Source: Pelagibius sp.
Lineage (GTDB): Bacteria; Pseudomonadota; Alphaproteobacteria; Kiloniellales; Kiloniellaceae
Assembly (NCBI RefSeq): GCF_028289705.1
Contig: NZ_JANQOI010000149.1
Location: 1-49,489 of the forward strand
Reading direction: 5' to 3'
Length of the DNA stretch: 49,489 nt
Made by a program: the position numbers and the translations under genes. Position 1 is the first letter of the stretch. Each line of letters starts with the position of its first letter. The notes beneath the pieces are model-generated. The model did not search any database and was not told the origin of the DNA. It saw only the letters and a list, made by a program, of their open reading frames with translations. Positions 16,627 through 40,826 of this stretch are shown piece after piece.

Positions 16627-17835
16627 ATGTTCCGTCTCTCGCATTACATGCGCCAGCTCGTCTCGCCGACGCCGCCGCGCCCGCGCCGCGGGCCGGTCAA
16701 ACCGGTGGTGATCTGGAACCTGACACGCCGCTGCAATCTGCGTTGCCGGCACTGCTACTCGGTTTCCGCCGACCACGCGTTTCCGGGCGAGCTCACCCAC
16801 GAGCAGGCGATGGCGGCCCTGGAGGATCTGGGGGCCTTCGGGATTCCCGCCTTGATCCTCTCGGGCGGGGAGCCATTGGCGCGGTCCGATCTTTTCGAGA
16901 TTGCCGAGCGGGCCCGGGAGATGAAGCTCTATCTCGCGCTTTCCAGCAACGGCACGCGCATCGTCGGTGAGCAGGCCGACCGTGTGGCGGCCATCGGCTT
17001 CGACTATGTCGGCATCAGCCTCGATGGCATCGGTGCGACCAATGACTGGTTCCGCGGCAAGGAGGGCGCCTTCGATCAGGGGCTTGCCGGCGTCCGGGCC
17101 TGCAAGGCGCGCGGGGTCAAGGTGGGTCTGCGCTTCACCCTGACGGAGGACAATGCCCATCAGCTTCGCGACCTGCTGGCCCTCGCGGAAGCGGAGGGCG
17201 TGGACAAGTTCTACCTCTCCCACCTGGTCTATGCCGGGCGGGGCGACAAGCATCGCGGCGCCGATGCGGGCTGGCGGCGGTCGCGCCACGCCATGGATGT
17301 TCTGATCGACCGCGCCTGGATCGCGGCGGCCGAGGACCGGCCGCTGGAGATCGTCACCGGCAACAACGATGCCGATGCGGTCTACTTCCTGCGCTGGGCG
17401 GCAGAGAACTTCCCGGCCGAGCAGGTGGACCATCTGCGGGCGCATCTGGCGGCCTGGGGCGGCAATTCGTCGGGCCTCGGCGTTGCCAACATCGACCCGC
17501 AAGGCAGGGTCCATCCGGACACTTACTGGTCCGACTACACCGTGGGCAGCGTGAAGGAGAAGCCTTTCTCCGAACTCTGGACCGGCGACGATCCGATGCT
17601 GGCCCAGCTTCGCCGCCGGCCGCGGCCCTTGAAGGGCCGCTGCGGCGCCTGCGCCTTTCAGGACGTCTGTGGCGGCAACACCCGCATCCGGGCTCTGCAA
17701 TTGACCGGCGACCCTTGGGCCGAGGACCCGGCCTGCTACATGGCCGATGAGGAGATCGGCGTCGAGAGCGCGGACCGTCTGACCGTCACGCCCTTCCTGG
17801 GAAAAAGCCATGATCCGGTTCATTGCTACTACTAG
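16627..17835 (+). CDS. nirJ: NirJ, radical SAM enzyme of heme d1 synthesis
   Basis: Radical SAM protein thought to replace propionate side chains with the oxo groups of heme d1. The [4Fe-4S]/SAM motif CNLRCRHC is at Cys36, Cys40, Cys43. A SAM-binding GGEP motif ([10 protein letters not shown]) and YVGISLDG follow. The C-terminal SPASM-like part has cysteines in [13 protein letters not shown] and a last pair-forming Cys in DPACY, for an auxiliary cluster. Length 402 aa is usual. An AGGAG ribosome site is at 16615-16620, and the gene overlaps nirN by 26 bp. Confidence 0.95.
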
Positions 17836-30332: not shown

Positions 30333-31721
30333 TCATTTTTGATCGGGCTCTTGGGTTCTTTGCAGAAAGCTTCTGAAGTCCCGGACGTCCGGGACCTGGT
30401 CGAGGGCGAAGACCTTTTCGATCATCGCCCGGCAAGGATCCGCTCCGAGCACGGGGGCCATCAGGTCTTCCGCCTTGGCGGCGACCTCCGGCCTGTCGAG
30501 CGGATCCTCGTAAACCCCTTTGACGGCGTAGGTTCGGTGTGACAGCCGGCGCCCATCCAGCAGATGCACCTCGACGATGGCCTGGCGGATGGGTTTGGCC
30601 TTGCGCAGGATCTCGCTGGGCACCAGGGAGACCTTCTCCTTCATCGCCAGCACGGCTGGATCGCGCATACGCGCGGGATCGTGGCTGTCCTTGAAAGTGA
30701 AGCGGCCGTCGACCAGCATCAGCGCGACGCAGAAGGGACAGCTGATGTCCGACATGCCGCGGTCGACGACCACGTCGATGACGCCGGGCGGCATGTGGAC
30801 CCGCACCTCTTCGACCTGATCGCCGGTCACGCCCTCGTTCTTCATCAGCCATTCCAGGGAATCGAGCACCGCCTGGATCGGCGAGCCCACGCACCATTTC
30901 TTGATGTTGGTCAGGGTGATTTCGAAACGGGTCCCGAGGCCGTCGATCAGCACGTCCCGGTCGGGCTGGCTGGAAAAGGCGTCCATGAAGTTCCCGCGCC
31001 CGTTCAGCACGTCGTCCAGGCCGGTGAAACCGGCGGCCACCATGGTGGCGGCGGAGACGCCGTTGCGCGCCGGCATGCCGCCGAAGTGGAAGGCCTTTTC
31101 GATGTGGTCCGCATCGCGCATCCAGGTGGCGATGCCGGAGGTCTGCTGGGCGACGTTGGAGAAGAGATAGGGCAGGCGGTCTCGTGGAATGTCCAGCAAG
31201 AGGCCCGCGGCGGCCGCCGCCCCCCAGGCGCCGCCGATGGAGTAGGGCCCGTGGCCGCGGTCGTAGATCTCCCGCGGGCCGAGGGCGAGGTTCACCCGGG
31301 CATAGAGGTCGTAGCCCAGCACCACGGCGCGCAGGAAGTCGGCCCCCGAGGCCCCGACCTGCTCGGCTGCCGCCAGGGCCGCCGGCACCACCACGCAGCC
31401 GGGATGGCCGATGGCTGCGGGGTGGCTGTCGTCGGTCTCGTCGGCGTGGGCGATCATGCCGTTGGCCAGAGCGGCGTTGACGGTCGAGGTCAGAAAATCC
31501 GTTCCCGCGATGCTGGCGGTGGGGACCCCGCCCTGCGCGCGGCAATAGGCGATGGCGATCCGGCCCACCGGCAGGTCAACGCCGGTCACCATGGCCGCGA
31601 AAGTGTCGAGGACGTGGTGCTTCGCCTTTTCCGCAACCGCCTCCGGCAGGTCTGCCTGCCGGGCGTGGGCGACATAGTCGCAGAGACTGGTGATGTGATG
31701 AGAGGTGCTTGCCTTCAGCAA
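30333..31721 (-). CDS. MmgE/PrpD family protein
   Basis: Member of the MmgE/PrpD family, whose best-known members are 2-methylcitrate dehydratase and cis-aconitate decarboxylase; many members have other, unknown substrates. 462 aa. Family landmarks are visible: KHHVLDTFAAMVTG, ANGMIAHADETDDSH (the His/Asp-rich active-site stretch), HPGCVVVPAALAAAEQ, and HFGGMPARNGVSAATM. The reading begins at TTG 31721; no in-frame ATG comes before about residue 44, and GGGAA lies upstream. It diverges from a LysR gene that may control it. No other methylcitrate-cycle genes are nearby, so PrpD proper is not supported. Confidence 0.85.
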   Translation of the reverse strand: MLKASTSHHITSLCDYVAHARQADLPEAVAEKAKHHVLDTFAAMVTGVDLPVGRIAIAYCRAQGGVPTASIAGTDFLTSTVNAALANGMIAHADETDDSHPAAIGHPGCVVVPAALAAAEQVGASGADFLRAVVLGYDLYARVNLALGPREIYDRGHGPYSIGGAWGAAAAAGLLLDIPRDRLPYLFSNVAQQTSGIATWMRDADHIEKAFHFGGMPARNGVSAATMVAAGFTGLDDVLNGRGNFMDAFSSQPDRDVLIDGLGTRFEITLTNIKKWCVGSPIQAVLDSLEWLMKNEGVTGDQVEEVRVHMPPGVIDVVVDRGMSDISCPFCVALMLVDGRFTFKDSHDPARMRDPAVLAMKEKVSLVPSEILRKAKPIRQAIVEVHLLDGRRLSHRTYAVKGVYEDPLDRPEVAAKAEDLMAPVLGADPCRAMIEKVFALDQVPDVRDFRSFLQRTQEPDQK

Positions 31722-32777: not shown

Positions 32778-35027
32778 TCACTCCGGGTCCGGATAGGGGC
32801 GGACGCGGACGAGACAGGTCATGGCGGTGCAGGCCTGGCCCAGGGCCGAGGTGGCGACGTCGCGGGTGACGGCGTTGGGGTTTCCCGAGAGATCGAGCCG
32901 GTTGTCTGCTGCGTCGGGTTCGAACCAGGTGCCGGTGGCCATGGCGGCGACGCCGCGCCGGCAGAGGTCCGAGACCTTCACCCGGGCGCGGCAGGCGCCG
33001 CGCGCGTTCTCCACCAGTGCGAGGCTGCCGTCGCCGAGGTTCCGGGCCCTGGCGTCGGCCGGGTTGAGCCAGAGATCTTCGGGCTCGCCGGCACCGCCGG
33101 CGGCGGTCTGCCCGAGTTGGCTGTGCAGCCGGAAGGCGGGCTGCCGGCTCAGGAGGTGCAGCTCTTCCGCCTCCGCAGTGCCGAGCCATTCGTCCGGAGC
33201 CACCCAGGCGGGATGGCCGGGCAGGCCCGCATAGCCGAAGGACTGCACCCGCTCCGAGACGATCTCGATGCGCCCCGAGGGGGTCTTGAGCGGCGCCTGC
33301 TCCGGCGCCGCGCGGAAGTCCTCCAGATAGACCTCCGGCCGCTCGGGTGGCGGGACCTGCCAGACCCCCTCCTGCCAGAAGGTCTCGAAGTCCGGCGCCG
33401 CCAGGCCCTGTGCGTGGGCGGCGGTCTCGGTCTTGCGCCAAAGCCGGCGCAGCCAGCCGGCCTCATCCAGGCCCTCAGTGAATTCTTTCGCGCAGCCCAG
33501 CCGCTCGGCCAGCTCCGCGAAGATCGCGACGTCGTCGCGGGCACCGGCCAGCGGGGCGATGAGCTGCGGCATGGCAAAGACGTGCGGATCGCGGGAGGAG
33601 CCGCCGATGTCGTTGCGCTCGGCCGTCGTGGTGGCGGGCAGCACGATGTCGGCGCGCTTGGCCGTGGCCGTCCACCAGGGCTCGTGCACGATGACGGTCT
33701 CGGGCCGTGCCCAGGCGCTCTGCAGGCGAAACAGGTCCTGGGCGTGGTGAAAGGGGTTCCCGCCCGCCCAGTAGATCAGCCGGGTGTCCGGATAGGTCAC
33801 GCGGTGGCCGTTGAAATCGATGGTCGCGCCGGGCCGTTCCAGCATGTCGGCGATACGGGCCACGGGCACGGCCGAATCCGAAGGGTTGGGCAGCGACTCC
33901 ATTGAGGGAACCAGGCCGCGCCGCGCGCCTTCTCCGACGGCGTTCAGGGAGCCGTAGCCGAAGGTGAAACCGCCGCCGGGCTGACCGATCTGGCCGAGCA
34001 TGGCGGCCAGGGCGATCAGCGCCCAGTAGGACTGCTCGCCATGTTGGGCGCGCTGCAGCGACCAGGTTGCCGTCACCATGACACGGCCCGTCATCATGCG
34101 CGCCGCCAGGTCTTCGATCTGCCCCGCCGGCACGTCGCAGAGCGCCGCGGCCCAGGCTGCGGTCTTGGCAACGCCGTCCGTTTCGCCGCGCAGGTAGGCG
34201 AAGAAGCGCTCATGGCCGACGCAGTAGCGCTCCAGGAAATCGCGGTCGGCCCGCCCGCGGCGCAGAAGCTCGTGGCACAAGGCCAGCATCAGGGCGGTAT
34301 CGCTGTTGGGGCGCAGCGCGATCCAGTCGGCCTCGAGGGTCTCCGGCTTATCATCGGCCATGGGGCTGATCACGACGAAGGCGGTGCCGCGGGCCTGCGC
34401 CCGTTCGACATGCCGGTCCATGTGGTGGAAGCCGGCGCCGCCGGAGGTGACCCGCCAGTTCTTCGGATTGAGGCCGCCGAAGGCGACCAGCAGGTCCGTG
34501 TGTTCGACGATGGAGTCCCAGCTCGTCGCGGCGCTGGCCACCGCATCGTGGTCGCCCAAGACATGGGGCAGCACCGCGTGGGCGGCGCCCCAGCTATAGT
34601 TGCCGACCTGATTGGTGAAGCCGCCGGATGCGGCGAGAAAGCGGCGGAGCTGGCCGCGCGCGTGATGGTAGCGCCCGGCGCTCGACCAGCCATAGGAGCC
34701 GCCGAAGACCGCATCATGGCCATGGCGCGCGCGCACCCGGGTGAGTTCGTCGGCCACCAGCGCCAGGGCATCATCCCAGGCGATGGGGACCATCTCCTCC
34801 CGGCCGCGGCCCCGGCCGTTGGCGCCCTCGCGGTCGCGCAGATAGCTGGCGCGGACATAGGGCTGGTCGATGCGGGTCTTGGAATAGACCAGGTCCGGCC
34901 AGGCGGCGATCATGCGGGCGCTGGCGCCGCTGTCCGGCAAGGGCTGCGCGTCGGTCAGGCGGCCATCCTCGATGCTGGCCTCGAAGGCGCCCCAATGGCA
35001 GACGCTGGTCCGGGTGGTAGCCGACAT
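32778..35027 (-). CDS. Cytoplasmic DMSO reductase-family molybdoenzyme, BisC/TorA-like
   Basis: Bis-MGD molybdenum enzyme, 749 aa, of the group that reduces S- or N-oxides such as DMSO, TMAO, biotin sulfoxide or methionine sulfoxide. The segment GGSYGWSSAGRYHHARGQL (from about residue 109) matches the YGWKSPGR region of DorA/TorA/BisC, where Ser ligates Mo; Ser116 is the aligned residue here. No N-terminal Fe-S cysteine motif and no Tat signal are present, so it is single-subunit and cytoplasmic, like BisC. Other cofactor regions: WDSIVEHTDLLVAFGGLNPK, IYWAGGNPFHHAQDL and, near the end, GQACTAMTCLVRV. It is last in the TRAP/DapA-like cluster, 18 bases after the tautomerase stop. Confidence 0.86.
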   Translation of the reverse strand: MSATTRTSVCHWGAFEASIEDGRLTDAQPLPDSGASARMIAAWPDLVYSKTRIDQPYVRASYLRDREGANGRGRGREEMVPIAWDDALALVADELTRVRARHGHDAVFGGSYGWSSAGRYHHARGQLRRFLAASGGFTNQVGNYSWGAAHAVLPHVLGDHDAVASAATSWDSIVEHTDLLVAFGGLNPKNWRVTSGGAGFHHMDRHVERAQARGTAFVVISPMADDKPETLEADWIALRPNSDTALMLALCHELLRRGRADRDFLERYCVGHERFFAYLRGETDGVAKTAAWAAALCDVPAGQIEDLAARMMTGRVMVTATWSLQRAQHGEQSYWALIALAAMLGQIGQPGGGFTFGYGSLNAVGEGARRGLVPSMESLPNPSDSAVPVARIADMLERPGATIDFNGHRVTYPDTRLIYWAGGNPFHHAQDLFRLQSAWARPETVIVHEPWWTATAKRADIVLPATTTAERNDIGGSSRDPHVFAMPQLIAPLAGARDDVAIFAELAERLGCAKEFTEGLDEAGWLRRLWRKTETAAHAQGLAAPDFETFWQEGVWQVPPPERPEVYLEDFRAAPEQAPLKTPSGRIEIVSERVQSFGYAGLPGHPAWVAPDEWLGTAEAEELHLLSRQPAFRLHSQLGQTAAGGAGEPEDLWLNPADARARNLGDGSLALVENARGACRARVKVSDLCRRGVAAMATGTWFEPDAADNRLDLSGNPNAVTRDVATSALGQACTAMTCLVRVRPYPDPE

Positions 35028-35045
35028 GGTCCCTGCGCAGCCTCG

Positions 35046-35252
35046 CTAGGTTTCGCCGCGCTGGCGTTTGCGCTCGGCAACGGTGATGCCGCCCACAGTC
35101 CATTCTTCCGGCGCAATATCCTCGAAGACGACATAGACGTGCTCGGCGTGGGCATTGCAGCAGCGGGCGATGGTCTCCGTGATCTCGCGGGCCGCCTCCT
35201 GCTTCTGTTCGGCCGTGCGGCCGGTGGCCAGGGTCACGCGCACGATGGGCAT
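35046..35252 (-). CDS. 4-oxalocrotonate tautomerase-like protein
   Basis: Small tautomerase-superfamily enzyme, 68 aa. Met is followed directly by the catalytic Pro (MPIVRVTLATGR), and Arg11 in mature numbering is in place. The mid part HVYVVFEDIAPEEW is typical. AAGGAG lies 6 bases before the ATG at 35252; a longer reading to 35321 would hide the proline and is rejected. It probably moves a double bond or handles an unsaturated 2-oxo acid in the surrounding pathway, by family analogy. Confidence 0.88.
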   Translation of the reverse strand: MPIVRVTLATGRTAEQKQEAAREITETIARCCNAHAEHVYVVFEDIAPEEWTVGGITVAERKRQRGET

Positions 35253-35262
35253 CGGGCTCTCC

Positions 35263-36027
35263 TTATCCGAGGCTGAGGCCGCCATCCACATGGAGGGTCT
35301 GGCCGGTGATGTGAGCGGCATCGTCGCTCAGCAGAAATTCTATGGCCGCGGCGATGTCGTCCGGCTCGGCGATGCGCCCGGAAGGGGTAAGCGCCGCGGC
35401 GGCGCGCCAGGCCTCCTCCGACATGGCCGAATGCCCCGTGGCTTCCTTGCGGGTGAAGCCGGGCGCGACGCAGTTGACGGTGACGCCTCTGCCCGCGACC
35501 TCGGCCGCGAAGGTCCGGGCCAGGCCTTCAATCGCCCCTTTCGCCGCGGCGGTGACGGGAAAGATCCGTCCTCCGGGCGCGCGGTGGACGACGAAGGAGC
35601 TGACCGCGACCACCCGCCCCCGGGGGGAGGCCTCCAGTTGGCCGCGTGCCGCGGTGATGAGGTCGAAGAAGGCCCCGGCCATGGTCTCCAGGGAGCGGTC
35701 GAAAGCCGCCCGGTCCGCGTCGCCGACGGGCGTCGGCTGGGCGAAGCCGGCATTGGACACCACCTGGTCTAGGCGGCCGAAGCGGGCGATGGCCTGATCC
35801 ACCAGCGCGGCGGCGCCTCCCTCGGCCAGGTCGGCGAAGGCGGCCTCGGCTTCCGCGCCGGCGGTGCGCAGCTCTTCGACCAGGGCTTGCAGCGCGGGGC
35901 GCTTGGCGCCGTCGCTGCCGCCGCGGGCATGAGCCAGGATGGCAAGGCCCGGTCCCGCCAGGCGCCGGCAGGTGGCCGCGCCGATACCGCTGGAGGCGCC
36001 GGTGACGAGAACGACCCGCTCGGACAT
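35263..36027 (-). CDS. Short-chain dehydrogenase/reductase family protein lacking the catalytic Tyr
   Basis: Rossmann-fold SDR, 254 aa. The cofactor motif TGASSGIG is at residues 9-16, NAG near 91 (SNAGFAQ), and the active-site Ser in VVAVSSF. The usual YxxxK is TAAAK (FPVTAAAKGAIEG): Lys is present but the catalytic Tyr position is Thr. CVAPGF and the closing ITGQTLHVDGGLSLG match FabG-type SDRs. It lies 4 bases after the DapA-like stop and 10 before the tautomerase. It may be a weak or re-purposed dehydrogenase, or a non-redox binder. The base sequence clearly encodes ACC (Thr) there. Confidence 0.88.
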   Translation of the reverse strand: MSERVVLVTGASSGIGAATCRRLAGPGLAILAHARGGSDGAKRPALQALVEELRTAGAEAEAAFADLAEGGAAALVDQAIARFGRLDQVVSNAGFAQPTPVGDADRAAFDRSLETMAGAFFDLITAARGQLEASPRGRVVAVSSFVVHRAPGGRIFPVTAAAKGAIEGLARTFAAEVAGRGVTVNCVAPGFTRKEATGHSAMSEEAWRAAAALTPSGRIAEPDDIAAAIEFLLSDDAAHITGQTLHVDGGLSLG

Positions 36028-36031
36028 CGAT

Positions 36032-36973
36032 CTATTCCGCCGCCGCGGCCCGGGCGCCCAGCTTGTAGCCGTAGGCCCGGTCCAGCTCCAGCTTCGCCGC
36101 GATATCCAGGCCCGCCTGGAGCGCCGCGCCGTCGAGCGCCGTCAGCGGTTTGCGCAGCGGCCCGGCCGGCAGGCCGACGGCCCGCATCAGGCTCTTGATG
36201 GCCACCGGATTGATCGCCGAATAGGCGAAATGCAGCATGTCCAGGTTGCGCAGCCAGGCCTCCCGGCAGGCGAAGGCGTCCTCGCCGCTTTCCCATTTCT
36301 TCGAGATGACCGCCATCTCGCGCGGGATGACGTTGCCGGTCATGTTGGCGGTGCCGTCGCCGCCCAGCGCCATCATCGGCACCACGAGCCCCAGGTTCGG
36401 CGAGCAGCAGCACATGATCGCCATGTCGGGTTTGGCCGCGCAGACCTGCGCCACCTGGCCCACGCGGGTGGTGGACTCCTTCAGCACCACCATGTTGGGG
36501 TGCTCGGCGAGGCGCAACAGGTCGTTCCAATGCAGGTCGGTCTTCACCCGCGGCGGGTTGTTGTAGAAGCCCACCGGCAGGTCGACGGCGTCGCAGACCT
36601 CCAGCGCGTAGTCGGTGATGTCGGCGTTGGAGGCGCAGATATAGGCGGGCGCGGCGATGATCGCGCCGTCCGCCCCCTCGGCCTTGGCATAGCGCACGTT
36701 GTCGACCGTCATGGCGGTGTTCTGGCCGGTGCAGCCGTAATAGAACAGCATGCGGCCGGTCTTCATCTTCGCCGTCTCGGAGATCACCTTGCGCCGCTCT
36801 TCGGCGGAGAGCATGGAGACCTCCCCGGTCGAGCCCATGATGAGCACGGCCTCGGTCCCGTTCTCCTCGTGAAACTGCAGCAGCGTGCGAAAGCCCTCGA
36901 AATCGATGGAGCCGTCGTCGTTCATGGGCGTCACCAGAGCGACGAAGGAACCTTTGGGTTTGATGTGCGCCAT
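36032..36973 (-). CDS. DapA/dihydrodipicolinate synthase-family lyase
   Basis: Class I aldolase-fold enzyme, 313 aa, of the DHDPS/N-acetylneuraminate lyase superfamily. Schiff-base Lys165 (VVLKEST), Tyr137 (GFYNNPPR), and the pyruvate-carboxylate motif GSTGE at residues 47-51 are all present. The specificity motif differs from true DapA (NNPPR instead of NVPxRT), and a run of three cysteines (residues 188-190) lies where family members have small hydrophobics. It is therefore more likely a 2-oxo-acid aldolase, lyase or dehydratase in a catabolic route than lysine biosynthesis. It follows dctM by 15 bases. Confidence 0.85.
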   Translation of the reverse strand: MAHIKPKGSFVALVTPMNDDGSIDFEGFRTLLQFHEENGTEAVLIMGSTGEVSMLSAEERRKVISETAKMKTGRMLFYYGCTGQNTAMTVDNVRYAKAEGADGAIIAAPAYICASNADITDYALEVCDAVDLPVGFYNNPPRVKTDLHWNDLLRLAEHPNMVVLKESTTRVGQVAQVCAAKPDMAIMCCCSPNLGLVVPMMALGGDGTANMTGNVIPREMAVISKKWESGEDAFACREAWLRNLDMLHFAYSAINPVAIKSLMRAVGLPAGPLRKPLTALDGAALQAGLDIAAKLELDRAYGYKLGARAAAAE

Positions 36974-36988
36974 CTTCTTCTCCGCGGA

Positions 36989-38278
36989 TCAAAAGAGGTT
37001 GGGTGAGACAAGTTTCGGAAAGGCCAGCACCAGATCGGGCAGCCATAGGGACAGAACTGCAACAGAGACTGTAAGGCCGACGATCGGCAGGACAGCCAGT
37101 ATGGCCCGGCCCAGGGGAACGTCGCCGATCTGCGCGGCGATCAGCAGGCAGATGCCGTAAGGCGGCGTGATCAGCCCGACCGAGAGCACGATGGTGGCCA
37201 GCACCCCCATGTGCACGGGGTGCATGCCGGCGAGATCGCCCAGCGCCTGGATGATCGGCAGGAAGATCAGCACGGCGGAAATCGGGTTGAGCACGGTTCC
37301 CACCAGCAGCAGGAAGCCGACCAGCAGCAGCATGATGCCGAAGGGGTTCTCGGTCTGCTGGGTGATGAACGCGACGACGATCTGCGCGGCACCCAGGTAG
37401 GCCATCAGCCAGCCGAAGATGCCCGCGCCCGCCACCGTGAACAGCGGCACCGAGAACTCCACGGTCGCGTTGGCCAGGTGGCGCGGCATGTCGCGGAAGG
37501 GGATGTCGCGGTAGACGATCAGCGACAGGACCAGCGCCCAGATGACGGCGCTGATCGCCGCCTCGGTGGGGGTGAAGAACCCGCTGATGACGCCGCCCAG
37601 CACGACGACGGGAATCAGCAGCGGCGCGACGCCGCGCCCCAGCGCGCGGCCCAGCGGCATCAGGCCCGGAAAAGGGCTGGAGGGGAACCCCCGCCGCACC
37701 GCCATGACGTAGGTGTAAGCCATCATGAAGAGCCCGATCACGATCCCCGGAACGACGCCGCCGAGGAACAGCGCGCCGATGGAGACGTTGCCGAAGGCAC
37801 CGTAGACGATGAGGATGATCGAAGGCGGGATGATGACGCCCAGGGTGGAGGAGGCCGCGGTCAGGGCGACGGAAAAGGCCGGATCGTAGCCAGCCTTCTT
37901 CATGGCCGGGATCAGGATCGAGCCGACGCTGGCGGTGTCGGCTGCCGCGGAGCCGGAAAGGCTGGCGAAGACCATGGAGACGAAGACGTTCACATGGCCG
38001 AGGCCGCCGCGCACATGCCCGACCGTCGCATTGGCCACCGCGAGCAGGCGGTCGGTGATGGAGCCGGCGTTCAGGATGCGCCCCAGGAACATGAAGAAGG
38101 GCACGGCGAGCAGCGGGAAGCTGTCGATGTTGGAGTACATCTGGTTGGCGACCGAGGCCAGCGGCAGGTCTTCCAGCAGCATCACGAAGATCGAGGAGAG
38201 GATTAGCGCGAAGCCGATGTTGACCCGGAAGGCGATCAGAACGAAGAAGCCGGCGATCAGAACGACGAGCGGGTTCAT
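36989..38278 (-). CDS. dctM: TRAP transporter large permease, DctM family
   Basis: Large membrane subunit, 429 aa, hydrophobic throughout. Landmarks: NIGFALILSSIFVML, SLSGSAAADTASVGSILIPAMK, AASSTLGVIIPPSIILIVYG and TPTEAAISAV. I chose ATG 38278, which overlaps the dctQ stop as ATGA; the open frame upstream to 38575 has no hydrophobic start and belongs to dctQ's shadow. It carries the imported compound for the following DapA-like/SDR/tautomerase/Mo genes. Confidence 0.93.
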   Translation of the reverse strand: MNPLVVLIAGFFVLIAFRVNIGFALILSSIFVMLLEDLPLASVANQMYSNIDSFPLLAVPFFMFLGRILNAGSITDRLLAVANATVGHVRGGLGHVNVFVSMVFASLSGSAAADTASVGSILIPAMKKAGYDPAFSVALTAASSTLGVIIPPSIILIVYGAFGNVSIGALFLGGVVPGIVIGLFMMAYTYVMAVRRGFPSSPFPGLMPLGRALGRGVAPLLIPVVVLGGVISGFFTPTEAAISAVIWALVLSLIVYRDIPFRDMPRHLANATVEFSVPLFTVAGAGIFGWLMAYLGAAQIVVAFITQQTENPFGIMLLLVGFLLLVGTVLNPISAVLIFLPIIQALGDLAGMHPVHMGVLATIVLSVGLITPPYGICLLIAAQIGDVPLGRAILAVLPIVGLTVSVAVLSLWLPDLVLAFPKLVSPNLF

Positions 38279-38739
38279 TCCGGCGTTCGCCGCTTGAGCA
38301 GCGTCTCGAGCAGAAAGAGGGCCATCAGGGCGCCGCCCAGCGGGATGGGCAGAAAGAACCAGACCTCGGAGATTCCGATGGAGGGCGACACCCGCCGCGT
38401 CGCCATCTCGGCCAGGGTCGCGCCGTAGCGGATCAGAACGGCGATCACGACGATGGCGGCCAGGGTCGACAGCACGGACTGGATGCGGCGGCCCAACACG
38501 GCCCCTTCCGGCAGCAGGTCGACGACATAGTGGCCGCCGCGCCGGAAGGCGACGGCCGCGCCGATGAAGATGCACCAGGAGAACAGCAACTGGGCGATGT
38601 CCAGGGTCCAGATTAGCGGCGTCTGCAGCAGGTTGCGCGCCGCGACCTGGGCGAAGACCGTGGCGATCATGGCGGCAAAGGCGAGCGCCAGAAAGGCGAC
38701 CAGCACCGCCTCGATCCGGTCGTTGATACGGACGAGCAT
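38275..38739 (-). CDS. dctQ: TRAP transporter small permease, DctQ family
   Basis: Small four-helix subunit, 154 aa, with hydrophobic segments near residues 12-32, 48-65, 85-105 and 125-145 and the FSWCIFIGAAVAFRRGGHYVVD stretch in shortened form. It is separated from dctP by a 68-base gap holding a strong hairpin and overlaps dctM by 4 bp. Confidence 0.9.
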   Translation of the reverse strand: MLVRINDRIEAVLVAFLALAFAAMIATVFAQVAARNLLQTPLIWTLDIAQLLFSWCIFIGAAVAFRRGGHYVVDLLPEGAVLGRRIQSVLSTLAAIVVIAVLIRYGATLAEMATRRVSPSIGISEVWFFLPIPLGGALMALFLLETLLKRRTPE

Positions 38740-38761
38740 CCGAAATCCGGGCCCTTTGGTT

Positions 38762-38794
38762 GCCGCGGGCCGCCCGTGCGTGCGGGCCCGCGGC
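38762..38794 (-). terminator. Strong hairpin between dctP and dctQ
   Basis: Perfect 10-bp inverted repeat (38762-38771 and 38785-38794) with a 13-base loop, 14 bases after the dctP stop. As in the peptide importer, such a stem is expected to favour accumulation of the binding-protein message. No T-run follows it on the minus strand. Confidence 0.7.
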
Positions 38795-38807
38795 GGTCCT
38801 CTCTAGA

Positions 38808-39797
38808 CTACTGTCCCGTCACCGCTTTCATCGGCGCGACGAGGTTCAGTTCCTCGGCCAGCGAGGCCTGCAGCGGCGCCAGCGCCGCCTGGAACTCGCC
38901 GACGTCCGGCCTGGTTACGGTGACGCCGTTCTCGGCCTGCAGCTTCTTCACCAGTTCGCCCTCGTACTGCCGGGCCTTTTCGATGCCGAGAGCCGAGGCT
39001 TCCGCGGCAACCTCCATCACCACCGTCTGCAGGTCGGCCGGCAGCTTGTCCCAGGCGCGCCCGCTCATGGAGATGTGATTGACCTGGATCGTGTGCGCGG
39101 TGAGAGCCAGATAGGGCGCCACCTCGTAAAGCTTCGAGCCGGCGTATCCGGGGATCGAGCTTTCCAGGGCCTCGGCGACACCGGTCTGCACGCCGGCATA
39201 GAGCTCGCCCCAGGCGATGGTGACCGGCAGGGTGCCCAGCGCCTCCCAGGTCTTGGAGATCATCGGCGAGGGCGGCGTGCGCATCTTGTAGCCCTTGATG
39301 TCGGCCAGGGCGTTCACCGGCCCCTGGGAGTTGGACAGGTTGCGCGTGCCCGATCCGCCGAGCGCCAGCAGCTTCATGTTGAGCTGGCGGTCGTCATAAA
39401 CCTCCCGGAAGTAGGACTCCGCCGCGGTCCCGGGGCCGACCTTCGCCATCAGGTCGTCGAAATCGCTGAACAGGTAGGGCATGGAGAAAATCTGGTACTC
39501 CGGCACCTGCTTGGCGGCGTTGTTGGTGGAGCTGATCATCAGGTCGATGGTGCCGAGCCCCATTTCGCCGATCACCGCCGGGTCTTTGCCGAGTTGTCCC
39601 GCATCGAAGACCTGGACCTCGATAGCGCCGTTGCTGCGCTCCGCCAGTTCGGCCTTCATGAAGGCGGCCATGTCGTTGTAGGGATGCGGCGACTTGACCA
39701 GGGTGTGAAGCCGCATTTTGTAGTCGGCGGCCTGGGCCGCTGGAACCGCGACCGCCAGGGCCACGAAGGCGGAAAGAAGCCACTTTGCGAGTGCCAT
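38808..39797 (-). CDS. dctP: TRAP transporter substrate-binding protein, DctP family
   Basis: Periplasmic receptor, 329 aa, with a Sec signal (MALAKWLLSAFVALAVAVPA, cleavage near AQA-AD). DctP landmarks: HTLVKSPHPYNDMAAFMKAE, VFDAGQLGKDP, GSGTRNLSNSQGPVNALADI and WGELYAGVQTGVAEALE. ATG 39797 follows GGGAGGG by 6 bases, which decides against an ATG five codons upstream. It heads the TRAP/DapA-like cluster, 123 bases after the LysR gene on the same strand. Confidence 0.93.
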   Translation of the reverse strand: MALAKWLLSAFVALAVAVPAAQAADYKMRLHTLVKSPHPYNDMAAFMKAELAERSNGAIEVQVFDAGQLGKDPAVIGEMGLGTIDLMISSTNNAAKQVPEYQIFSMPYLFSDFDDLMAKVGPGTAAESYFREVYDDRQLNMKLLALGGSGTRNLSNSQGPVNALADIKGYKMRTPPSPMISKTWEALGTLPVTIAWGELYAGVQTGVAEALESSIPGYAGSKLYEVAPYLALTAHTIQVNHISMSGRAWDKLPADLQTVVMEVAAEASALGIEKARQYEGELVKKLQAENGVTVTRPDVGEFQAALAPLQASLAEELNLVAPMKAVTGQ

Positions 39798-39908
39798 AAG
39801 AACCCTCCCCATGATGTGCCGTTTCCCGCCGCTGGACGGCGGGCCTAAGGACCTCGCTTCAGCTTCGCGCCCCGCGACATAGAATCAAATACAAAATCCC
39901 GCTAACGG

Positions 39909-39925
39909 CATAATCAAATGTTATG
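39909..39925. promoter_or_regulatory. Inverted repeat ahead of dctP, candidate LysR operator
   Basis: CATAA-TCAAATG-TTATG is a symmetric 17-base repeat at the very end of the LysR gene (it covers the stop codon) and 112 bases upstream of dctP. Nearby bases (39886-39898) repeat ATCAAATA and are AT-rich, a likely promoter for dctPQM and the downstream genes. Size and symmetry suit a LysR-type site; binding is inferred. Confidence 0.5.
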
Positions 39926-40826
39926 AGGTTGTGGTGACGGCCGGATGTTCCACCATATGGGCCATTGCCGCCTCCGCAAACAGCTCGGCGAGGCGGGACA
40001 CCGGAACGCCGGCGGGCCGCATCAGGCGGATGTCGAAGGGCGTTTCCGGCTGGAACCGCGCCACCGCGATCCTGTCGGGACCGAAGAACTCCGCCGTCAG
40101 CGGGTCGACGATGGCGATTCCGACCCCTTCGGCCGCCAGGGCGCAGGCGGCGTAGGAGGGCTGGGACTCGACCTTGATGTCGCGGCGGATATCGGCGGCC
40201 AGGAAACTCTGGGCCACATGCTGGGAGGCCAGGGTGTGGTGCGACAGGGCGACCAGCGGCTCCTCGGCCAGGTCGCTCACCGCGATCTCGGCGCGTCCGG
40301 CCAGCCGGTGGGCGCGCGGAATGGCGCAGACGCAGGCCAGGCGGTAGGTCGCCAGCACCTCGATGTCCGGCCGGGTTTCGGGAAGCTGGGCCAGACCGAG
40401 GTCGAACTGCCCGGCGGCCAGCAGGTCGATGATCCGCGGTGAGGTATGGACGTCCATGGTCACCTTGACCGAGGCCCTGGCCCCGGTGAAGGCGCTCACG
40501 ATACGCGGCGCGACGGCGAAGGAGACTGCCGGCATGGTCGCCAGGCGGACATGGCCGCGCCGCAGGTCGCGGATTTCCCGGGCCGCCGCCTCCACCCGGT
40601 CGAGGCCGATGAAAAAGCGATCGGCCTCGTCCTTGAGGTTCACCGCTTCGGGCGTCGGATGGGCGCGTCCGCCGCTGCGCACGAAGAGCGGAAATCCGAT
40701 GTCGGCCTCCAGGTCGGCGATCAAGCGGCTGACGGCGGGCTGGGAGACCCGTAGCATCTCCGCCGCGCGGGTGATGCTGCCGTAGGTCATGACCGCACGG
40801 AAAACCTCGATCTGACGCTGGTTCAC
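39921..40826 (-). CDS. LysR-family transcriptional regulator
   Basis: 301 aa regulator with a clear N-terminal HTH (QIEVFRAVMTYGSITRAAE, VSQPAVSRLIADLEADIG) and a C-terminal ligand domain. The HTH text resembles the subgroup governing amino-acid or organic-acid uptake. It starts at GTG 40826 with GGAAGGA upstream. It lies 42 bases after ppc and 123 bases before dctP on the same strand, and is the best candidate controller of the TRAP/DapA-like cluster. Confidence 0.9.
   Translation of the reverse strand: MNQRQIEVFRAVMTYGSITRAAEMLRVSQPAVSRLIADLEADIGFPLFVRSGGRAHPTPEAVNLKDEADRFFIGLDRVEAAAREIRDLRRGHVRLATMPAVSFAVAPRIVSAFTGARASVKVTMDVHTSPRIIDLLAAGQFDLGLAQLPETRPDIEVLATYRLACVCAIPRAHRLAGRAEIAVSDLAEEPLVALSHHTLASQHVAQSFLAADIRRDIKVESQPSYAACALAAEGVGIAIVDPLTAEFFGPDRIAVARFQPETPFDIRLMRPAGVPVSRLAELFAEAAMAHMVEHPAVTTTS

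Follow-up and report, generated by a model that had tools for sequence, protein, structure and literature searches.

We examined a cluster of eight genes in a 49,489-nucleotide stretch of DNA from Pelagibius sp. (assembly GCF_028289705.1, contig NZ_JANQOI010000149.1; the whole stretch is hereafter called the window) and found that they form a conserved, catabolic-looking operon without earlier characterisation. The genes lie co-directionally on the minus strand from 40826 to 32778, in the order LysR-dctP-dctQ-dctM-DapA-SDR-4OT-MoCo, and the set is rare, although its conservation extends past close relatives. Our favoured interpretation, held tentatively, is that the operon serves the uptake, through a tripartite ATP-independent periplasmic (TRAP) transporter, of an amino, imino or oxo acid bearing an S- or N-oxide, followed by deoxygenation by a BisC-like molybdoenzyme (MoCo) and Schiff-base cleavage by a DapA-like lyase; the nature of the substrate is our inference. 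An earlier reading, made from the letters alone and called here the sequence-only reading, had listed seven of the genes. Their positions and strand were confirmed and each protein matched the family named, but the eighth member, a LysR gene at 39921-40826, had been left out. The genes are as follows.

39921 to 40826, minus strand: LysR-type regulator of 301 amino acids (PF00126 and PF03466)
38808 to 39797, minus strand: dctP, TRAP solute-binding protein (TIGR00787 at 184 bits, over the cut-off; PF03480)
38275 to 38739, minus strand: dctQ, TRAP small permease subunit (PF04290 at 94 bits)
36989 to 38278, minus strand: dctM, TRAP large permease subunit (TIGR00786 at 359 bits, over the cut-off; PF06808)
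36032 to 36973, minus strand: DapA-like class I (Schiff-base) lyase (PF00701 at 172 bits; TIGR00674 at 173 bits)
35263 to 36027, minus strand: protein of the short-chain dehydrogenase/reductase (SDR) fold, with Thr replacing the catalytic Tyr and the cofactor motifs kept (PF13561 at 152 bits)
35046 to 35252, minus strand: tautomerase of the 4-oxalocrotonate tautomerase (4-OT) type, with Pro next to the initiator Met (PF01361 at 49.8 bits; gathering score 22)
32778 to 35027, minus strand: BisC-like molybdoenzyme (best family bisC_fam, TIGR00509, at 870 bits)

Taking the dctP start as 39797 (a start at 39812 is possible), the intergenic gaps from LysR to the molybdoenzyme gene are, in order, 123, 68, -4, 15, 4, 10 and 18 bp. 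The tight spacing claimed for the seven genes therefore holds, at -4 to 18 bp apart from the 68 bp between dctP and dctQ. DctP, DctQ and DctM are all present together, as expected of a TRAP importer. The sequence-only reading knew of no named pathway with this gene set, and we found none in the literature searched; no open-access paper combined dihydrodipicolinate synthase (DHDPS), biotin sulfoxide reductase and a TRAP transporter, which is weak evidence of absence because only open-access papers were covered.

A scan of named genomes for the lyase gave 27 loci, ranging from Alphaproteobacteria to Betaproteobacteria, Chloroflexota and one metagenome-assembled genome (MAG) filed as Acidimicrobiaceae. 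Together with 16 further stretches, and less one copy, this made 42 lyase loci for comparison besides that of the window. Many of these stretches end at contig ends, and the counts given are of genes within the available stretch; some loci are close kin (e.g., L024/L025, L091/L099 and L089/L100), and in one, L034, the lyase is only an 80-bit fragment. Present in the stretches of the 42 loci were the molybdoenzyme in 10, the Tyr-less SDR in 9 (the SDR of L026, a 46-bit fragment at a contig end, was counted by hand), each TRAP gene in 8, LysR in 8 (matches of at least 200 bits) and the tautomerase in 4. Genes were called by a codon-usage script and their starts are approximate; the SDR of L008 and the dctQ and 4-OT genes of L019 were missed by the caller and recovered by a search of open reading frames, and several neighbouring genes were named from a single tested member of their cluster.

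Two MAGs, L009 and L019, share the complete order LysR-dctPQM-DapA-SDR-4OT-MoCo. All eight genes are also present in L012, where DapA-4OT-MoCo stand in a row and the SDR belongs to a divergent group upstream. The window-type SDR and tautomerase are absent from L010 and L087, where the molybdoenzyme is followed instead by another SDR and a gene of the D-amino acid dehydrogenase type (named from the L087 copies, which were tested). The lyase is followed directly by the molybdoenzyme in L010, L014, L087, L091 and L099, with 11-33 bp between the matched stretches, and the molybdoenzyme precedes the lyase in L024 and L025 (Bradyrhizobium), with 153-159 bp between them; in both Bradyrhizobium loci a tripartite-tricarboxylate-type binding protein, read by eye, takes the place of TRAP. 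Several families have the set, complete or partial, so the possibility that it is confined to close relatives, which the sequence-only reading had named as fatal to its proposal, can be set aside. Within the genus and order the gene set is an accessory trait, since the lyase (E up to 1e-70) was present in 1 of 8 genomes of the genus, the window's own, and in 4 of 61 of the order.

Co-occurrence was assessed in a class sample of 385 genomes, with only the best few candidates per genome scored. The lyase (E up to 1e-90) was present in 16 genomes and a BisC-like molybdoenzyme (E up to 1e-150) in 80, with both in 12 (p 2.8e-6); the SDR (E up to 1e-50) was present in 29, 10 of them with the lyase (p 6.9e-9; both values by one-sided Fisher test, kinship ignored). 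Lyase and BisC-like genes lay in one gene run, within ~1.1 kb, in 5 of the 12 genomes having both (four genera, the window's included), and their linkage exceeds chance. DctP of the window type (E up to 1e-70) occurred in 3 of the 385 genomes, each time in the lyase's gene run. We consider it improbable that these genes are a loose neighbourhood, sharing a strand and short gaps while having separate functions. Such an arrangement would be consistent with the frequency of partial sets, with a tautomerase in only 4 of 42 loci and with a molybdoenzyme linkage that is scattered on the lyase tree, but it is difficult to reconcile with an identical gene order in distant genomes and with a DctP that, in all 3 genomes having it, lies in the lyase's gene run.

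The molybdoenzyme begins MSATTRTSVCHWG, with no twin-arginine leader visible by eye; BisC likewise is without an export signal, as the window enzyme appears to be. It aligned to the dimethyl sulfoxide reductase 1eu1 with an E of 1.3e-175, and it has the residues of a BisC-type enzyme: in an alignment of 37 rows, the YGW motif and the Ser at the ligand position were each present in 37. We take this Ser, from its position, to be the Mo ligand. The enzyme shares the sequence family, the Ser at the Mo-ligand position and the YGW motif with the S- and N-oxide reductases BisC, TorZ and MtsZ, but differs in falling under the cut-off of the curated NCBIfam model bisC_fam (870.4 vs. 1017.55 bits), and for this reason we name it BisC-like only. 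A passage of PMC7759655 describes BisC and MtsZ relatives as reducing biotin and methionine sulfoxide.

A tree of the 37 molybdoenzyme rows (our trees are quick searches with support by SH-aLRT only) placed the linked enzymes of the window, L009, L010, L012, L014 and L057 in one group with a support of 100. The L019 enzyme sits in the same operon slot, yet it fell among unlinked BisC-like enzymes and scored 745 bits to the window enzyme, vs. 984-1144 bits for those of L009, L010, L012, L014 and L087. Because the L019 enzyme groups in this way, and because well-supported branches force at least two linkage changes, the operon slot appears, on the evidence of the tree, to be kept rather than one molybdoenzyme lineage. 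A pathway needing BisC-like chemistry would be expected to show such an in-place swap or repeated pairing. A further pairing was seen in L116:7814-11128, where a DapA-family gene only distantly related to the window lyase (52 bits) stands directly before a BisC-like molybdoenzyme.

The lyase retains the active-site residues of the DHDPS family. Its Schiff-base Lys, Tyr and Arg, residues with catalytic roles in the family, were invariant across 21 sequences, and it keeps the DHDPS-type Arg after YNNPP. Sequence and predicted-fold comparisons with the PDB had DHDPS-type entries among the matches listed and indicated no substrate. Although it shares the predicted fold and these residues with DHDPS (DapA), the window lyase falls under the dapA cut-off (TIGR00674, 173.4 vs. 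206.15 bits), and a separate dapA match of more than 300 bits was present in 11 of the 13 carrier genomes tested (of 18 known carriers). We therefore rejected the lyase as the DHDPS of lysine biosynthesis. The two carriers without such a match, G000 (best 209.6 bits) and G439 (215.1 bits), are both drafts, and canonical dapA is probably missing from the G000 draft assembly, as the best matches in two other genomes of its genus score 344 and 336 bits. In L089, L096 and L100 the lyase lies near dapF and SRP54-type housekeeping genes. The lyase family may serve several pathways as a pyruvate-releasing enzyme.

One such pathway could be that of a sugar acid or 2-keto-3-deoxy acid, in which TRAP would import the sugar acid, the SDR would act on it and the DapA-like aldolase would split it, the molybdoenzyme being a travelling repair enzyme. 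The best solved relatives of DctP include the sialic-acid binders 4mmp and 4mnp, the lyase family contains the N-acetylneuraminate lyase and 2-keto-3-deoxygluconate enzymes, and a 2-keto-3-deoxygalactonokinase gene lies ~1.4 kb from the lyase in L097. Against it stand the repeated pairing of lyase and BisC-like enzyme, with a different lineage filling the same slot in L019, and the missing catalytic Tyr of the SDR, and we regard this explanation as unlikely.

In the SDR, T-A-A-A-K takes the place of the Y-x-x-x-K of a classical member. Among 29 distinct SDR sequences scoring 150 bits or more, with that of the window counted in, all 29 had Ser or Thr at the Tyr position and all kept the Lys, a replacement that sets them apart from FabG-like classical SDRs. 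By its sequence the window protein, which the sequence-only reading had already called Tyr-less, belongs to a Tyr-less subfamily, and a search of the literature on Tyr-less SDRs found nothing fitting. The subfamily also has a second context. In L149:8822-10410 and L158:8065-9709 an aspartate-dehydrogenase-like gene comes directly after the Tyr-less SDR, and just upstream of the two lie a gene of the Asp/Glu racemase family and TRAP genes of the TAXI type (L149 copies tested). The tautomerase starts with MPIVRV, and the Pro after the initiator Met, together with PF01361, places it in the 4-OT group; its closest solved structures are 7puo and 3mb2. While it has the domain family and N-terminal Pro of 4-oxalocrotonate tautomerases, it differs in that it reaches the cut-off of none of the seven NCBIfam models to which it matched (52.6 vs. 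80, 48.7 vs. 55 and 56.9, and the others lower). In its VYVV stretch it has a Tyr where 4-oxalocrotonate tautomerases typically have an Arg.

The presence of a 4-OT-type tautomerase is in keeping with a serious rival, for the window as well as for its relatives, namely that the lyase acts as a hydratase-aldolase on products of ring cleavage or on unsaturated dicarboxylic products, with a logic like that of NahE. Tautomerase and lyase would then end a meta-cleavage-type chain and yield pyruvate and an aldehyde, the SDR would work on the aldehyde side, and the molybdoenzyme would deoxygenate an N-oxide or be peripheral. Several relatives have suitable neighbours. Rieske and LigB genes lie 5-9 kb away in L020 and a Rieske gene ~9 kb away in L095, an amidohydrolase gene stands upstream of the lyase in L022 and L034 (the L034 copy was tested), and the short contigs L018 and L021 have, by cluster, some neighbours of the L022/L034 type. 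In L008 a DSBA-family gene follows the 4-OT gene; this is presumably the family of 2-hydroxychromene-2-carboxylate isomerase. Against these stand the TRAP-type loci L008, L009, L010, L012, L015, L019, L026 and L087, in which no ring-cleaving dioxygenase was spotted by eye (no profile search was made), and the lyase itself, with its DHDPS-type Arg after YNNPP and the DHDPS-type entries among the predicted-fold matches listed. Overall, we judge a ring-cleavage role somewhat unlikely.

Flavoenzymes that act on amines adjoin the lyase in a number of relatives. A three-gene set like the subunits of D-hydroxyproline/opine dehydrogenase, enzymes whose subunit make-up is described in a part of PMC4575208, stands beside the lyase in L009, L019 and L026; in L027 the set lies at a greater distance. 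In L010, L087 and L032 the lyase has genes of the D-amino acid dehydrogenase type near it. In L026:8522-10924 a single frame fuses an alpha-like subunit of this HypDH/opine-DH type (residues 28-473, 44% identical to the L009 subunit) to a DapA-like lyase (residues 494-799, 67% identical to that of the window); this is one genome, and the fusion may be a sequencing error because that genome is a draft. A cystathionine beta-lyase family gene (TIGR01324, cut-off 366 bits) directly precedes the lyase in L028 (489 bits) and, by cluster, in L029, and another (390 bits) lies ~3.4 kb from the lyase in L086. These neighbours are a hint that the substrate might be an amino or imino acid, perhaps one containing sulfur. 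When 148 of the 200 near genes (those within three of the core) were scanned against Pfam, DAO was the top family with 7; for 137 of 148 far genes drawn (six or more away), the 25 families listed, with counts down to 2, did not include DAO. One far gene outside the 137, L096:667-3090, is a flavoenzyme of the amine-oxidising kind.

The same neighbours recall hydroxyproline catabolism (4HypE, D-HypDH, HypD), in which case the lyase would be a pyrroline-hydroxycarboxylate deaminase (HypD). A part of PMC4113996 sets out the known route as transport, a DAO-type oxidase or dehydrogenase and a DHDPS-family deaminase, and the window set resembles it in having an importer and a DHDPS-family enzyme, with a DAO-type dehydrogenase adjoining the lyase in some relatives. 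The operon, however, is without a proline racemase or an aldehyde dehydrogenase, and it adds a molybdoenzyme, a tautomerase and a Tyr-less SDR. The genome's three matches to the proline racemase family are on contigs C10, C50 and C158 and none is on the window contig, C96; those on C50 and C10 lie 1.4 kb and ~8 kb, respectively, from other DapA-family genes with 24% and 27% identity to the window lyase. From this gene context we disfavour the hydroxyproline route and think it very unlikely.

Our preferred reading, catabolism of an S- or N-oxide-bearing acid, is based on gene identities, gene order, conserved catalytic residues and repeated association. As its family would predict, the LysR protein would sense the compound and turn the operon on, and the TRAP importer would take up the carboxylate. 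The cytoplasmic BisC-like enzyme may then strip oxygen from S or N. By analogy with some relatives, a flavin amine dehydrogenase, which the operon itself does not encode, could convert the amine to an imine or 2-oxo acid. With its conserved catalytic residues, the DapA-like enzyme would attach to the 2-oxo or imino acid through a Schiff base and then cleave it or eliminate from it, most likely giving pyruvate. The weakest step is the last, in which the tautomerase might shift an enol/keto form and the Tyr-less SDR might handle an imine- or enamine-like intermediate needing no Tyr acid. The sequence-only reading had likewise proposed reduction and cleavage of an oxide-bearing or unsaturated carboxylate; the linked, conserved set stands, as do the Ser and YGW of the molybdoenzyme and the S-oxide reduction that a passage of PMC7759655 ascribes to its relatives, and the substrate part is speculative. 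A more specific version, which we hold to be a long shot, is a new route for a sulfoxide amino acid, possibly a cyclic one such as cycloalliin or chondrine. Here the BisC-like enzyme would reduce the sulfoxide, a flavin imino-acid dehydrogenase would give the ketimine, the DapA-like enzyme would open or cleave a sulfur analogue of the DapA product, and the Tyr-less SDR would found a class of imine-handling SDRs. The open-access literature held nothing fitting on sulfoxide amino-acid catabolism with TRAP or on cyclic sulfur imino acids.

Several observations weigh against the preferred reading. Just two loci besides that of the window have all eight genes in the complete order, 32 of the 42 other lyase loci are without such a molybdoenzyme (partly through contig ends), and Pelagibius L008 has the remaining operon genes without it. 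On the lyase tree, linkage to the molybdoenzyme changes 8 times in a scattered pattern, and 48 of 500 shuffles gave a count this low; therefore, the molybdoenzyme comes and goes. The window enzyme itself scores below the bisC_fam cut-off, as given above. SDR and BisC-like enzyme co-occur in 20 of 29 genomes (p 5.9e-9, kinship ignored), and since 13 of these 20 are without the lyase, genome type may account for part of the co-occurrence. The operon has no flavin amine dehydrogenase of its own, and a phmmer recount with four query sequences taken from the compared loci themselves found flavoenzymes among 7 of 200 near and 2 of 199 far genes, which is not significant (two-sided Fisher p 0.17). 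Finally, in L022:8893-16893 a gene like a flavin-containing monooxygenase (FMO) adjoins the lyase, with LigA/LigB ~5-6 kb off, and L034:8243-18509, the locus of the lyase fragment, has LigA/LigB by cluster and a Rieske gene. The occurrence of the lyase among such aromatic ring-opening genes suggests a more general pyruvate lyase and speaks for the ring-cleavage rival.

We also looked at the surroundings of the operon. Just upstream of the LysR gene, window:40869-43652 holds a 927-amino-acid gene resembling phosphoenolpyruvate carboxylase by eye, which had no cluster mate among the relatives. On the other side, window:24655-31721 holds an ATP-binding cassette (ABC) peptide-type transporter group, read by eye, and an MmgE/PrpD gene, which adjoin the operon; in L011, L023 and L085, too, the lyase is flanked by ABC genes from these broad clusters. 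Neither PrpD (30333-31721) nor the window binding protein had a relative among the compared loci with a match of at least 300 bits, and we therefore set PrpD and the adjacent ABC genes aside as parts of the operon. An Rfam search returned nothing over gathering scores, and scans for promoters (1 promoter-like site vs. 0.9 in shuffles) and terminators (5 terminator-like sites vs. 3.9) were not above chance. ARAGORN called a selenocysteine tRNA on the minus strand at window:17572-17664, inside a called plus-strand gene (16627-17835), and this call may be false.

A passage of the review PMC7759655 treats BisC-type enzymes as repair enzymes and gives the electron donor of BisC as unknown. If our reading is true, a conserved operon uniting importer, lyase and BisC-like enzyme would mean that an enzyme of this type can serve in nutrition, with a small, testable set of substrates. 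The Tyr-less SDR subfamily, in which none of the 29 sequences has the Tyr, poses a separate and clean question of enzymology.

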